Shown piece by piece: positions 6,228 through 60,850 of a stretch of DNA of 64,000 bases. The notes beneath the pieces are model-generated. The model saw only the letters and a list, made by a program, of their open reading frames with translations, had not been told where the DNA came from and ran no database searches. Origin of the DNA: Sutcliffiella horikoshii DSM 8719 (GTDB lineage Bacteria; Bacillota; Bacilli; Bacillales; Bacillaceae_I); contig LQXN01000065.1 in assembly GCA_001648575.1 (NCBI GenBank), positions 62,001-126,000 of the forward strand, written 5' to 3'. A program made the translations under genes and the position numbers. The number at the start of each line of letters is the position of its first letter. The first letter of the stretch is position 1.

Positions 6228-7499
6228 ATGGAAACTCAAACACAAACAATCAAATCAATCTCCAAACGATTTATGGATGTTCGAGACCTCACCATGAAGC
6301 TTGTTCAGCCTTTGGAAACGGAAGATTTCATCATTCAATCACATCCGGATGTAAGCCCACCGAAATGGCATCTGGCACACACCACCTGGTTTTTTGAGCG
6401 CTTTGTGCTGAAAGAGTATTTCGAGAACTACAGGGAATTCCACCCGAAATACGATTTTCTTTTCAACTCCTATTACGAGACAGTCGGGCCATTTCAGCCA
6501 AGGCATCAGCGCGGAGTACTTTCGAGGCCAAGCATCCAGGATGTTTTCCAATATCGCAGTTATATCGATAATTATATCGTTGACCTTCTATCACAACTAG
6601 AAGGGTCCCAGTCGGAAAAAACCGACAAGGTCCACAGCCTCATAGAAATCGGAATGCAGCATGAACAGCAGCATCAAGAGCTGATCCTGATGGATGTTAA
6701 GTACAACTTCTATGTCAATCCGCTGCATCCAGCCTATAAAGAATCCAAGTCTGGCTCATCTGAAAAAATAGAACCATCCTTCCACACATATGATGGAGGT
6801 CTCATTGAAATCGGGCACAATGGCGAAGGGTTTGCTTTTGATAATGAAGGGCCGAACCATAAAGTCTGGCTCGAACCATTCAAGCTGGCCGACCAGCCTG
6901 TCACCAATGGTGAGTACCTGGAATTCATTGAAGCAGGAGGGTATCAGAAGCCATATTATTGGCTGTCTGACGGTTGGAACACGGTGAAAAAGAATGACTG
7001 GCAGGCACCGCTGTACTGGAGTAAAGACGAGGATGGAGAGTGGTACATTTTCACTCTTGGTGGCAATAAGAAGCTCGATCCACACCAGCCGGTTGTTCAT
7101 GTGAGCTTCTATGAGGCGGATGCTTTCAGCAGATGGGTAGGCAAGCGCTTGCCGACAGAAGCGGAATGGGAGCATGCGGCAAGGGACCTTGAGATTAAAG
7201 GGAACACGATGGACACAGGCAATTATCATCCGGCAGCATCCAATGGCTCAGCCGAATCAAAAATGTTTGGGGATGTGTGGGAGTGGACGGCAAGCGCCTA
7301 CTCGCCATACCCTGGCAGCAAACCGCTTGAAGGGGCACTTGGCGAATATAATGCTAAATTCATGTGCAATCAAATGGTGTTGCGCGGCGGATCCTGTGCC
7401 ACACCGCAGGACCATATCCGCAACACCTACCGAAACTTCTTCCCTGCAGACAAGCGCTGGCAGTTCAGCGGATTCCGATTGGCGGAGGATGCCCTATGA
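6228..7499 (+). CDS. egtB: Ergothioneine biosynthesis protein EgtB (hercynine oxygenase)
   Basis: A 423-residue non-haem iron sulfoxide synthase, which joins a thiol (cysteine or gamma-glutamylcysteine) to hercynine using oxygen. An N-terminal DinB-like domain carries the iron-binding set: H51 in WHLAHTTWFFE and H145-x3-H149-x-E151 in MQHEQQHQELI. The C-terminal half is a formylglycine-generating-enzyme/C-lectin domain with GDVWEWTASAY and LRGGSCATP. The length matches the family. It overlaps egtD by ATGA (7496-7499). No EgtA or EgtC is visible, so cysteine may be the direct sulfur donor (inference). Confidence 0.92.
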   Translation: METQTQTIKSISKRFMDVRDLTMKLVQPLETEDFIIQSHPDVSPPKWHLAHTTWFFERFVLKEYFENYREFHPKYDFLFNSYYETVGPFQPRHQRGVLSRPSIQDVFQYRSYIDNYIVDLLSQLEGSQSEKTDKVHSLIEIGMQHEQQHQELILMDVKYNFYVNPLHPAYKESKSGSSEKIEPSFHTYDGGLIEIGHNGEGFAFDNEGPNHKVWLEPFKLADQPVTNGEYLEFIEAGGYQKPYYWLSDGWNTVKKNDWQAPLYWSKDEDGEWYIFTLGGNKKLDPHQPVVHVSFYEADAFSRWVGKRLPTEAEWEHAARDLEIKGNTMDTGNYHPAASNGSAESKMFGDVWEWTASAYSPYPGSKPLEGALGEYNAKFMCNQMVLRGGSCATPQDHIRNTYRNFFPADKRWQFSGFRLAEDAL

Positions 7500-8458
7500 G
7501 ATTACTAGAAAATAATATTCAGAGCTATGATTTTTATATAGAAAAAGAAAATATGAGCCATCAAATCCTAAAGGGACTCCAAGCCCCAGTTAAGTCTATA
7601 TCCTCAAAATTTTTATATGATCATAGGGGATCAGAGTTATTTGAAATGATAACAGACCTTGAGGAGTACTATCCTACACGGACGGAAAAGAAGATCTTTA
7701 CCGAGAGTATAGAAGAAATCACCAAGGCTGTGGGGGATGTCCACACCTTGATTGAATACGGAAGCGGGAGCAGCAACAAAATCAAGGCGTTGCTTCACAA
7801 TTTCACGAGTCTCAAAGAATATGTGCCGATCGATATCTCACGCGAGTATCTCTTCCAATCCAGTTTGGAACTTGCTATGCAGTTCCCACACATCACCATC
7901 AAGGCGGTTTGTGGAGACTATACAGCCCCGCTTACGTTGCCGTTGGAGGAGGAAGGCAAGAAGGTCATCTTTTTTCCGGGGTCTACCATCGGGAACTTTG
8001 AGCCGATAGAGGTACGCAATTTCCTGATGAAATCCTCTCAGCTGCTAAAAGAAGGCGATGGTTTCCTAATTGGTGTCGATACAAAAAAGGATATCCTTAC
8101 GTTAGAAGCGGCTTATGATGATGCGAAAGGTATCACCGCTGCATTCAATCTCAATCTCTTGAAAAGGATGAACCATGAGCTTGGGGCGAATTTTGATGAA
8201 GAGCAATTTGAACACCTCGCCTATTATAACGAGGAAAAAGGGCGCATTGAAATGCACCTTGAAAGCCAATGTGATCAAATCGTGAAAATTGGGGAGAGCG
8301 AATTTACCTTCCATGAAGGTGAAACCATTCACACGGAAAACTCCTACAAGTATTCGATTGACGAGTTCCAGATGCTGGCATTGGAGTGCGGATTTAGGCC
8401 AAGTAAAGTATGGACGGATGACGAAGGGAAATTCAGTGTGCATTATTTAGAAAAATAG
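7496..8458 (+). CDS. egtD: L-histidine N-alpha-methyltransferase EgtD
   Basis: A 320-residue SAM-dependent enzyme that trimethylates histidine to hercynine, the first step of ergothioneine synthesis. The N-terminal part has the family pattern KFLYDHRGSELFEMITDLEEYYPTR. The SAM loop is IEYGSGSSNKIKALL, followed by PIDISREYL, and the histidine-binding region HTENSYKYSIDEF lies near the end. The start at 7496 is chosen because GGAGGA lies 6-11 bases upstream and the length then equals the mycobacterial enzyme; an in-frame upstream ATG (7364) would read through egtB. Last gene of a three-gene operon. Confidence 0.93.
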   Translation: MRLLENNIQSYDFYIEKENMSHQILKGLQAPVKSISSKFLYDHRGSELFEMITDLEEYYPTRTEKKIFTESIEEITKAVGDVHTLIEYGSGSSNKIKALLHNFTSLKEYVPIDISREYLFQSSLELAMQFPHITIKAVCGDYTAPLTLPLEEEGKKVIFFPGSTIGNFEPIEVRNFLMKSSQLLKEGDGFLIGVDTKKDILTLEAAYDDAKGITAAFNLNLLKRMNHELGANFDEEQFEHLAYYNEEKGRIEMHLESQCDQIVKIGESEFTFHEGETIHTENSYKYSIDEFQMLALECGFRPSKVWTDDEGKFSVHYLEK

Positions 8459-8469
8459 ATGAAAAAAAA

Positions 8470-8495
8470 CAGTGCCGATTGGTTGATCGGCACTG
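8470..8495 (+). terminator. Terminator-type hairpin, left copy, cut off from its T-run
   Basis: CAGTGCCGAT and ATCGGCACTG form a perfect 10-bp stem with loop TGGTTG directly after egtD and an A-run. No T-run follows because the repeat element at 8496 begins immediately. The same hairpin recurs at 8706-8731. Confidence 0.8.
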
Positions 8496-8705
8496 CAGAC
8501 TGTTGACAAACTAAAAATTAGTTAGGTTATCTGTTGGAAAGGTTGATCTTCGTTCCAGGCGCTTCGCTTTCCTGCGGGCGGTCCGTAAGCCTCCTCGGCT
8601 ACGCCTGCGGGGTCTTACATGTCCCTTCCTCCCGCGGGAGTCTGCGCGCCTTCCACTACGATCAACTAAGGTTTTCTATCAAATTTGAACTTTGTCTACA
8701 CACTG
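8496..8705. mobile_element. Hairpin-flanked MITE-like element, copy 1 (210 bp)
   Basis: Left end CAGACTGTTGACAAA and right end (read inverted) CAGTGTGTAGACAAA are 15-bp imperfect inverted repeats. The centre is a long GC-rich imperfect hairpin that opens TTGATCTTCG and closes ACGATCAA, containing the CTTTCCTGCGGGCGG motif common in Bacillaceae repeats. There is no reading frame of note. It is bounded exactly by two copies of the egtD terminator hairpin. Sister copies are at 28847-29062 and 60387-60822. Confidence 0.8.
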
Positions 8706-8737
8706 CAGTGCCAATTGGTTGATCGGCACTGTTTTTT
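8706..8737 (+). terminator. Terminator hairpin, right copy with T-run
   Basis: CAGTGCCAAT and ATCGGCACTG (one mismatch) form a stem followed by six Ts. It differs from the left copy at one base, which suggests the duplication is old enough to drift. It also abuts the convergent protease gene's 3' end. Confidence 0.85.
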
Positions 8738-8741
8738 AAAA

Positions 8742-10598
8742 TTAAAATTGTGGTGCTCTTGGATTGTCATTCACAGACCAGCCCTCATAAAGGCCGATAT
8801 CGTCAAATGCTCCTAAGAACGCATTATACTCGTCACTGCCCTCACCGTAAAGGTCAATGGCAGATTGTAAAATCGCTTCACGGAACTCCGCAAAAGAAGC
8901 GTCATAGTGCAGATAGTCATACGCGCGGTACCAAGTATCCGCGATAACTGTTCTACCCATATCATACTCTTCTGCTACAAGGTATGCGGAGTGCTGAAGA
9001 ATCGTACAGTTAATGTGCACGCCACCGTTATCCATATTCGCTGGCAGGTAGTAATACTCGTCCATGTGTGCTGGATAACGGCCTTCACCGTCAATGCTGT
9101 AAGGGAAGTATTGGGCCCCGACTGGGAATTTACCAGGATCTTCGTTGCTTCGAAGGGCCGTTCTGCCGTTCGCCAACCATTCCTCACCCATGATATCCTC
9201 GCCGATATCCCAGTTGCTGTCGTCTACTAAAGCTGCAAACGTATCAGAGTAGGCCTCATTGATAGCGCCAGTTTCAAAACGGTAACGTAGTCCGCCGTTA
9301 TAATGAGTGATTCCGTGAACCATCTCATGCGCTGTTACATCTAGAGCGGCAAGAGGAATGAATTGTTTTCCATCGCCATCTCCGTAAGTCATCATCGCGA
9401 TTCCGTTACTCCAAAATGCGTTATTATATTCTCTGCCATAATGCACTCTTGAATTGATCGCCATGCCGTTATCATCCAACGAATTGCGACCATGGTTTTG
9501 GAGGAAATAATCATAAACGATTCGGGAGTTGGAGTGCGCATCTACTGCAGGCCCTTGTCCAACCGTTTCCCAAGAACTGCTGTCTCCAGTGTACTCTACA
9601 TCCTTCCATGACGCGCTTTTATTGGAATATAACCATGTTTGGTTAGACGTGTTTTTCATATTGTAAGTGAAAATCCCATCCATTTGAGTTGTGGTGTAAT
9701 CTGCAAGGAAAAATTGAGTCCCTTGTCCGCTACCAGGGTCATTTCCATGTGACAGATTCAGAAGTTTAGTTAGTCCGGTCGTTCCGAGGCCAGACCCACG
9801 AGCAGGCTTTAACTTTCCAGCATTCTCGCCCGCTTTCGGATTGGGACCCTGCTCTACTTTTAAAGCAGAAGAACCTTCTACCTTGTTCGTTCCAATCAAG
9901 TCTTCAAAGAATCCAAGACCTGTCATCGCGTTATATTGATCTAGTACTTTACCATTGTGTGCATCCACGTACACATACCAATTGCCAGCTTCGCCTTCGA
10001 AAAATTCAAGGTTTACACGATAGGCAAGAAGATATTCATCTTCAAGTGGATAAATGATTAGCTCAGAGGACTCAACAGGGACATCTGCCGGAGCATCAAC
10101 CGCTTTCTTTGCTTCTGTTACTGCTTTGTCCGCTTGGATGGAAGGCGTGGTGTTAATAGTTAAGGAGTCTAATTTCGTATCGAAGTTTCCATTTACCGTC
10201 GTAATTTCATTTTTTTCATTGAAGTGAACATTAAGTTCATTTCGATCGACAGGAATACCATTTTTAGTTTGTTGCAGCCGAACGTGGGTCATCCCAAGGT
10301 CATCGGTTGTCGCTCTTACTTCCTTCAAATCTTTCTCAGGATTGTTCATATGGAAAAAATCTTTATGTTTTCCAAGGAACTTCTTCGCATTTTGAGCATC
10401 TGCCTTTGCTTGCTTTTCTGATAGAATGCCAGCCACAAAGGAAGGCGGCCCCTGATTGCCTTTGTTGTCGACAACCCTTACTTTTCCTTTACTTTTGAAT
10501 TCTTGTAATGAGCTCGCCGCGTTCGACGATGGTCCGCCGGAGAAAAGAGCAGCGAAGATAAGGAATACTACTGCAGCAAAAATAAAAATCTTCTTCAA
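8742..10598 (-). CDS. Secreted M4-family neutral metalloprotease (bacillolysin/thermolysin-like)
   Basis: About 618 residues. A signal peptide (KKIFIFAAVVFLIFAALFS...SNAASS) precedes an FTP/PepSY-type propeptide and a thermolysin-like catalytic domain. Zinc ligands are HEMVH near residue 424 and the glutamate of GAINEAYSD about 24 residues later; DNGGVHIN holds a further active-site histidine. It is exported and degrades extracellular protein. The start chosen is TTG at 10598, since GAGGGG lies at a good distance and the next residues form the positively charged signal start; a TTG six codons upstream lacks a spaced site. Single gene, convergent with the egt operon. Confidence 0.93.
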   Translation of the reverse strand: MKKIFIFAAVVFLIFAALFSGGPSSNAASSLQEFKSKGKVRVVDNKGNQGPPSFVAGILSEKQAKADAQNAKKFLGKHKDFFHMNNPEKDLKEVRATTDDLGMTHVRLQQTKNGIPVDRNELNVHFNEKNEITTVNGNFDTKLDSLTINTTPSIQADKAVTEAKKAVDAPADVPVESSELIIYPLEDEYLLAYRVNLEFFEGEAGNWYVYVDAHNGKVLDQYNAMTGLGFFEDLIGTNKVEGSSALKVEQGPNPKAGENAGKLKPARGSGLGTTGLTKLLNLSHGNDPGSGQGTQFFLADYTTTQMDGIFTYNMKNTSNQTWLYSNKSASWKDVEYTGDSSSWETVGQGPAVDAHSNSRIVYDYFLQNHGRNSLDDNGMAINSRVHYGREYNNAFWSNGIAMMTYGDGDGKQFIPLAALDVTAHEMVHGITHYNGGLRYRFETGAINEAYSDTFAALVDDSNWDIGEDIMGEEWLANGRTALRSNEDPGKFPVGAQYFPYSIDGEGRYPAHMDEYYYLPANMDNGGVHINCTILQHSAYLVAEEYDMGRTVIADTWYRAYDYLHYDASFAEFREAILQSAIDLYGEGSDEYNAFLGAFDDIGLYEGWSVNDNPRAPQF

Positions 10599-10629
10599 AT
10601 AAACCCATCCCCTCAAATATTTAGTGTTA

Positions 10630-28820: not shown

Positions 28821-28846
28821 GAAGCAACCCATTTTATGGTTGCTTC
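28821..28846 (+). terminator. Terminator-type hairpin, left copy
   Basis: GAAGCAACC pairs with GGTTGCTTC around CATTTTAT after the GAF-STAS gene. No T-run follows because the repeat element starts at 28847. The near-identical right copy is at 29062-29087. Confidence 0.75.
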
Positions 28847-29062
28847 CAGACTGTTGACAAACCCTAATCATCTTTAGAATTGCATTTTCTTGTCGATCTT
28901 CGTTCCAGGAGCTTCGCTTTCCTGCGGGCGGTCCGAGAGCCTCCTCACTTCGTTGCGGGGTCTCCCATGTCCCTTCCTCCCGCGGGAGTCTACGCTCCTT
29001 CCACTCCGATCAACATGAGAATTGCGTTTTCTTTAAGGTAAGATAAATTAGTCTACACGCTG
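28847..29062. mobile_element. Hairpin-flanked MITE-like element, copy 2 (216 bp)
   Basis: It starts CAGACTGTTGACAAA and ends GTCTACACGCTG, the same termini as copy 1 (8496-8705). The core has the same TTCGTTCCAGGAGCTTCGC and CTCCCGCGGGAGTC segments folding into a long GC-rich hairpin. It holds no gene. Flanks are two copies of a hairpin unrelated in sequence to the one at copy 1, so the duplicated flank is local. Confidence 0.8.
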
Positions 29063-29091
29063 AAGCAATCATTTTTATGGTTGCTTCTTTT
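29063..29091 (+). terminator. Terminator hairpin, right copy with T-run
   Basis: GAAGCAATCATTTTTATGGTTGCTTC followed by TTTT repeats the hairpin of 28821-28846 with a few changes in loop and stem. The rest of the gap to 29214 shows no feature besides an A+T-rich likely promoter. Confidence 0.75.
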
Positions 29092-60360: not shown

Positions 60361-60386
60361 GAAGACCTCCCCTTTGGAGAGGTTTC
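60361..60386 (+). terminator. Terminator-type hairpin, left copy
   Basis: GAAGACCTCCCC and GGAGAGGTTTC pair after the DJ-1-like gene. The repeat element starts immediately after it. The matching right copy is at 60823-60848. Confidence 0.7.
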
Positions 60387-60822
60387 GGACTGTTGACAAA
60401 CTATCTAGCAGATATGTTATTGGTTGGAACATTTAATCTCCATTGCAGGAGCTACGCTTTCCTGCGGGCGGTCCGTAAGCCTCCTCACTCCGTTGAAGGC
60501 CACTGAAAAAGTACATTATCCTAATGATCTGGTAATACCGCTGTTGATTTCCACAAAAGGCTGCGCTTTCCGCGGGGTGACCTTGAGCCTCCTCGGGCTG
60601 CGCCCTGCGGGGTCTCAAGATTGTCGCTATCCCCCCGCAGGAGTCTTCGCCTTTTGCTCCAATCAACAGCTAGAAATCATTAGGACGATAAGTTATTGGG
60701 TTTTTCAGTGGCCGTCTCCGTTGCGGGGTCTTACATGTCCCTTCCTCCCGCAGGAGTCTACACTCCTTCCACTACAATCAACAGGGATTCTATAACTCGA
60801 ATATAACTTTATCTACACACTC
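60387..60822. mobile_element. Hairpin-flanked MITE-like element, copy 3, interrupted
   Basis: It starts GGACTGTTGACAAAC and ends ATCTACACACTCA, the termini of copies 1 and 2. The two halves of the GC-rich core are separated by a 220-bp insertion (60496-60715). Removing the insertion and one 8-bp repeat leaves 208 bp, matching copies 1 (210) and 2 (216). Confidence 0.8.
60496..60715. mobile_element. Nested non-autonomous element with 13-15-bp TIRs and 8-bp target duplication
   Basis: Terminal inverted repeats are GGCCACTGAAAAA (60498-60510) and TTTTTCAGTGGCC (60701-60713). CTCCGTTG flanks the insert directly at 60488-60495 and 60716-60723. Inside is another GC-rich hairpin module bounded by CTGTTGATT (60541-60549) and AATCAACAG (60661-60669), related in style to the host element's core. 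No transposase is encoded, so it depends on a transposase supplied elsewhere. Confidence 0.85.
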
Positions 60823-60850
60823 AGATCTCCCCTTAGGAGAGGTCTTCCTT
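60823..60850. terminator. Terminator-type hairpin, right copy
   Basis: AGATCTCCCC(TTA)GGAGAGGTCTTCC repeats the hairpin of 60361-60386 with a few changes and touches the 3' end of the convergent amino acid permease gene. Confidence 0.7.

Follow-up and report, generated by a model that had tools for sequence, protein, structure and literature searches.

A short element between two copies of one stem-loop

A short element that stands exactly between two copies of a terminator-like hairpin raises the question of whether the hairpins belong to the element or to the DNA that it entered and, in the latter case, how a whole stem-loop comes to be duplicated. We pursued this from one locus of Sutcliffiella horikoshii DSM 8719, in a window of 64,000 nucleotides (contig LQXN01000065.1, positions 62,001 to 126,000), to which the coordinates below refer. 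At this locus (copy 1), an A-tract was followed by a 26-bp hairpin (8470..8495), a 210-bp element (8496..8705, plus strand), a second copy of the hairpin that differs at one base (8706..8731), and a T-tract. The termini of the element were 15 bp long, inverted, and imperfect (CAGACTGTTGACAAA at 8496-8510 on the plus strand and CAGTGTGTAGACAAA at 8691-8705 as read on the minus strand), and the hairpins were identical at 25 of 26 positions, so that the first-pass annotation of the element, its termini, and its flanks held when the coordinates were reread. The interior of the element lacked any frame of at least 100 aa.

A 364-codon frame on the plus strand (putative egtD, 7364-8458) ended 11 nt upstream of the copy 1 hairpin and a 624-codon frame on the minus strand (8742-10616) ended 10 nt from it; since both end at copy 1, the hairpin lies between convergent genes. 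The left hairpin had no T-tract and the right hairpin no A-tract, and each strand kept one hairpin plus a U-tract. As each strand still meets a hairpin with its own U-tract, termination has probably been preserved for both neighboring genes. The predicted RNA fold of 8440-8745 was a single long hairpin (z -8.4), and an Rfam search of 8400-8800 matched nothing up to E 1.

Two further copies were present in the window. Copy 2 (28847..29062, plus strand), of another subtype, was flanked by 25-bp hairpins (28822..28846 and 29063..29087) that were unlike the copy 1 hairpin and identical to each other at 22 of 25 positions. Copy 3 (60386..60822, plus strand) was interrupted, its 437 bp being due to a second element with ends GGCCACTGAAAAA that sits within it (about 60498..60713), and was flanked by a third kind of hairpin (60363..60385 and 60823..60845). 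The latter hairpins were placed by eye and had diverged (20 of 23 positions identical in a by-eye alignment); this pair was not returned by the repeat search that returned the copy 2 pair. The annotated pattern, in which copies 2 and 3 have the same termini as copy 1 but different, locally duplicated hairpins, was thus recovered.

The GC-rich core of copy 1 (about 8540-8670) also matched sequences in other members of the genus, among them G001, G002, G013, G007, and G003, at about 86-93% identity, and the ends of the present element were rare or absent there. Additionally, two loci (L081 and L082) carried elements with the GC-rich core and other ends, as if one core were used with several kinds of ends. 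In one congener (G012), about ten among the matches listed covered both the element and the second element nested in copy 3, and this composite seems to be mobile itself.

The element is a MITE of high copy number

The genome-wide search for the termini called for in the first-pass annotation located each terminus motif (at most two mismatches) at 193 places in the same genome, against 5 and 9 for reversed-pattern controls; the two motifs differ at three bases, so a few of the 193 places were possibly counted twice. BLAST with the copy 1 element returned at least 41 matches among those listed for this genome, where scoring covered 40 of the 298 first-look candidates. The number of copies in the genome is probably well above one hundred. 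A degenerate motif covering both termini, in exact form, occurred at 70 places in G015, two each in G002 and G013, and one in G017, which belongs to another genus, and was absent in that form from G001, G009, and G014. Short, multicopy, bounded by terminal inverted repeats and a target duplication, devoid of a transposase gene, and related to an autonomous element (below), the family has the hallmarks of a MITE.

The flanking hairpins are duplicated target DNA

If the hairpins were part of the element and traveled along with it, they would be expected to adjoin it exactly, as they do at most copies. However, the hairpins are specific to each locus, and at copies 1 and 2 a single hairpin is found in congeners that lack the element. 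Specifically, at the copy 1 site the element was absent from seven congeners (G001, G002, G006, G008, G012, G013, and G015), each of which had a single hairpin sharing the outer stem CAGTGCC; in three more (G003, G007, and G011) one unrelated hairpin followed the homologous gene, and in two (G005 and G010) the match was on the right side only. At the copy 2 site, a single hairpin with a like outer stem was found in five congeners (G001, G002, G006, G012, and G013), while four of ten aligned on the right only and were left out of judgement. None of the congener stretches compared at copies 1 and 2 held two hairpins in an empty site. These empty sites agree with the expectation, set out in the first-pass annotation, that relatives should hold one terminator, and with its claim that the flank is target DNA. 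Hairpins that travel with the element can hardly be reconciled with these observations: the flank is target DNA, and a whole stem-loop has been duplicated. The congener sequences did not align across the copy 3 site. In G015, the copy 2 terminator (L296) held a MITE with a visibly different left end, perhaps an independent insertion.

We then analyzed 96 two-ended copies, 77 from the same genome and 19 from G015 (loci L001-L050, L116-L155, and L084-L099), whose ends had at most three mismatches each and were spaced 100-520 bp apart. This was a non-random sample, in that the best matches to copy 1 made up L001-L030 and many others were picked because no exact mate terminus appeared among those listed. 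The flanking direct repeats scored above the maximum of 2000 mismatched-flank controls in 84 of the 96 copies and above the 95th percentile of the control in 90. This comparison excluded control pairs whose two flanks came from a single locus, as in tandem arrays that share a hairpin; with them included, the control maximum was 28 and 12 of 96 copies exceeded it. A majority of copies without duplicated stem-loop flanks, the outcome that the first-pass annotation had named as fatal to its reading, was thus not what we found. Of the 12 copies that failed the test, which was ungapped and blind to repeats with small indels, five (L026, L040, L050, L084, and L149) were seen by eye to have a hairpin duplication plus a small indel; others among them had unlike or decayed flanks.

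The repeats of the 84 copies had a median length of 26 bp (range 17-39), and the empty sites modeled from them reached a stem score of at least 7 in 78 of 84 cases, compared with 2 of 84 mononucleotide shuffles. In 74 of the 84, the repeat was preceded by an A-tract or followed by a T-tract (at least four of six positions). Among the 70 copies with repeats abutting both ends, 68 reached a stem score of at least 6 (25 nt context), compared with 16 of 70 shuffles. Tandem MITEs at four loci (L041, L122, L003, and L034) shared the hairpin between them, such that two elements were accompanied by three hairpins, as expected from repeated insertion at one terminator.

The position of the hairpins relative to genes was assessed at the 48 loci with enough flanking sequence. 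At least one gene 3′ end faced the hairpin in 44 of these, the gene ends facing it comprised 61 3′ ends versus 23 5′ ends, and the median distance from stop codon to hairpin was 14 nt. The MITE sits at terminator-like hairpins directly behind genes.

A related IS1182-family insertion sequence is also flanked by a hairpin duplication

Members of the IS1182 transposase family, as represented by the model NF033551, were present in eight of 16 genomes of the genus, six of them above the cut-off. The best member belonged to a 1513-bp IS in G001 (L186) that scored 477 bits against a cut-off of 270 and has the Pfam domains DUF772 and DDE_Tnp_1_6. The ends of this IS are CAGCTTGTAGACAAA and TTTGTCTACGGTCTG; read as CAGCTTGTAGACAAA and CAGACCGTAGACAAA, they share 13 of 15 bases with one MITE end each. 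Moreover, an exact 30-bp hairpin duplication bounds the IS on both sides. The plasmid pBH-BAT-167 of Sutcliffiella horikoshii carries an IS with a 99.8% identical transposase and the same exact 30-bp duplication, in nearly the same position as on the G001 contig. In the genome of the window itself, we found an IS relic with the same ends and with hairpin flanks, the left one shortened, that had stops in frame. An intact close parent was not found in this genome, which held the relic, fragments, and an IS1182 relative that was intact and had about 22% identity, and G015, with its many MITEs, had no IS1182 match at E 1e-10. Because the ends of MITE and IS are alike, we infer that the parent is likely an IS1182-family insertion sequence with similar ends and that an IS1182-type transposase would mobilize the MITE in trans.

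Inverted repeats were also noted just within both ends of the G001 IS (L186:1375-1425 and 2838-2887), the left one followed by a T-tract by eye, and may be terminators that shield the IS.

Other sources for a parent were considered. The IS1202 family came into question for its long duplications, and its model NF033594 had no match in the genome of the window at E 1e-3. Across the order, IS1202-type matches occurred in 40 of 299 genomes, and among 30 such loci analyzed there was one clean IS (L156), whose 16-bp repeat showed no hairpin on visual inspection, and two weak pairs. An autonomous parent was also sought in the same genome at termini with odd spacing or without a partner, where those read proved to be other ISs nested in the MITE, tandem MITEs, or decayed copies. 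No parent was recognized with the motif CAGACTGTAGACAAACTC across 18 genomes of the family.

Several nested elements were encountered on the way. A second IS1182-type group, with ends GGCCACTGAAAAA (L189, L190, L191, and L200; in the window at 60498-60713), had its own MITE, and two of its transposases (L191 and L200) were about 21-23% identical to that of the parent IS. This group and its MITE mostly had 8-9 bp repeats and often lay in the middle of the GC-rich core of the first MITE; pairing around the short repeats amounted to 3.3 pairs of 8, compared with 3.8 in the control (21 sites), and at one locus (L189) a single insertion in a terminator loop was seen by eye. At seven loci (L035, L036, L037, L040, L141, L142, and L155), an unclassified IS was nested in the MITE core, in similar positions in several copies, and coincided with contig ends, and one MITE copy (L031:1513-3497) was interrupted by frames including a putative IS110-type transposase, by eye.

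Stem-loop duplication across a wider IS clade

A transposase search of genome contigs recovered 461 relatives, and the best 80 of the 461 were analyzed. Duplicated stem-loops of 19-42 bp were present in 65 of these 80, from 16 named genera. Specifically, in wide windows the flanking repeats scored at least 16 at 63 of 80 loci, with lengths of 19-42 bp and no mismatch in 60 of the 63, and 62 of the 63 loci contained an open frame of 400 aa or longer; two loci with exact 19-bp hairpin repeats (L257 and L232) were added by inspection. The stem threshold (score 6, 25 nt context) was also reached by 22 of 63 shuffles of the IS set. The remaining 15 loci comprised nine cut by contig ends and six others, of which four (L229, L276, L278, and L286) had no recognizable right end and two (L285 and L289) had both ends present and unlike flanks. 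Additionally, no hairpin duplication was found in the ISEfa7-like and ISCfr1 plasmid copies or in L192 from the genome of the window.

Geometry of the repeats and a candidate mechanism

The repeats were centered on the hairpin in both sets. Of the 68 scorable MITE copies (repeat lengths 18-39), 67 had hairpin and repeat axes no more than 1 nt apart, as did 60 of 63 IS loci (19-42). At the eight outermost positions in the MITE copies, pairing was 76-91% inside the repeat versus 27-59% outside, the outside pairs being mostly A with T. In the IS set, for which the register of the script was off by one base at some loci, a base pair occurred immediately beyond the repeat (79%, largely A with T) as often as at its first inner position (68%), so the foot of the stem is not sharply set by pairing.

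The repeats range from 17 to 42 bp in length while keeping their center on the hairpin, which supports cutting at the feet of the stem-loop. A staggered cut at both feet of a hairpin or cruciform had been proposed in the first-pass annotation, and the repeats bear on this proposal through their symmetry, while the cutting step itself is what we infer from them. In this scheme, the target substrate would be the extruded stem-loop, that is, a cruciform, and the transposase would cut at both of its feet, which are 17-42 nt apart in sequence yet would be adjacent at the four-way junction. Gap repair would then copy the whole stem-loop on each side.

The same symmetry about the inverted repeat is also predicted for a transposase dimer that acts on double-stranded inverted repeats in B-form DNA, without a cruciform, and makes an ordinary, if very long, staggered cut. 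The modest correlation between repeat length and stem-loop length (r = 0.47 only, n = 78) speaks for such a dimer, the weakness of this value being attributable to pairing that often extends into the A and T tracts, and long, variable duplications are found in other DDE families, IS481EU being described with about 4, 15, and 25 bp within one family (PMC10045372). However, the lengths observed here were near-continuous over 17-42 bp and centered on the hairpin, unlike the discrete IS481EU classes, and stems at different loci had no common sequence by eye; we regard cutting by a dimer on B-form DNA as unlikely.

The stem-loop might instead be met in a single strand, such as the template of the lagging strand, the second strand being joined afterwards. 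Hairpins form easily in single strands, and other elements make use of single-strand hairpins, as with IS200/IS605 and attC sites. However, the transposase in question is a DDE enzyme, found with inverted-repeat ends, and such enzymes generally connect the two ends to both strands. A full duplication also requires joining on both strands, leaving insertion into single-stranded hairpins quite improbable.

We consider it well supported, then, that the element is a non-autonomous IS1182-family MITE that would insert through cuts made at both feet of a cruciform, each side thereby receiving a complete stem-loop. It also appears reasonably likely that it represents an IS1182 clade in which the secondary structure of the target, not the geometry of the enzyme, dictates how long the duplication is, and which, cutting at stem-loop feet 17-42 bp apart, would spread through terminators with little harm.

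Relation to known systems

The first-pass annotation knew of no named element with this behavior, a statement that needs correction insofar as the IS1182 family is already known for stem-loop targeting. IS1272, of this family, is described as replacing a stem-loop, which is fully or partly removed without target duplication (PMC5678879), and a like outcome with partial hairpin deletion is described for TnSha1, where five hairpins were confirmed as terminators by RNA-seq (PMC4923244). Both reports credit palindrome targeting in the IS1182 family to a review by Siguier. As these accounts present them, IS1272 and TnSha1 share with the present elements an IS1182-family transposase and a stem-loop target without a fixed or consensus sequence, often a terminator behind a gene. 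The outcome differs: there the stem-loop is removed and none is duplicated, whereas here a whole stem-loop stands on both sides.

The same product was foreseen by Wan et al. (2017), in whose Fig 13 (PMC5678879) pathway b shows both stem-loops attacked at their 5′ feet and, as the result, a whole stem-loop duplicated at both ends. That pathway is drawn as a possible branch, with no example in the account accompanying it, whereas here the product was seen at 65 of the 80 IS loci and in 84 of the 96 MITE copies. Long target duplications (16-28 bp) are likewise ascribed to a subgroup of IS1202 (PMC10132070), which, however, has a transposase of another family and whose clean example among our loci was the non-hairpin repeat of L156. 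ISEfa7 and its relatives in Enterococcus faecium, also IS1182-family members, have transposases 58-59% identical to that of the present IS and share the end motif CAGACTGTAGACAAA; yet in three plasmid records (two distinct sites, one annotated as ISEfa7) there was a hairpin by the right end and the flanks were not duplicated, possibly as a result of recombination. A report on an integrative element of Bacillus subtilis (PMC8880864) contains the words "duplication of the terminator". Among titles and abstracts, no earlier IS that duplicates whole stem-loops was found, and a record in ISfinder or the Siguier 2014 review is possible.

Implications for the IS1182 family and its hosts

If the mechanism above is correct, the size of the target duplication would report the DNA structure that the transposase met, and the insertions would amount to numerous natural traces of stem-loops being extruded in vivo at terminators, a process that is otherwise hard to test. 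The elements would supply examples for pathway b of Wan et al., so that duplicating and removing outcomes could be compared within one transposase family, and those IS copies whose repeats are exact and whose frames are open offer material for bench tests. For the host, the pattern suggests a safe-site strategy, in which entry at the 3′ ends of genes would leave a terminator for both neighbors.
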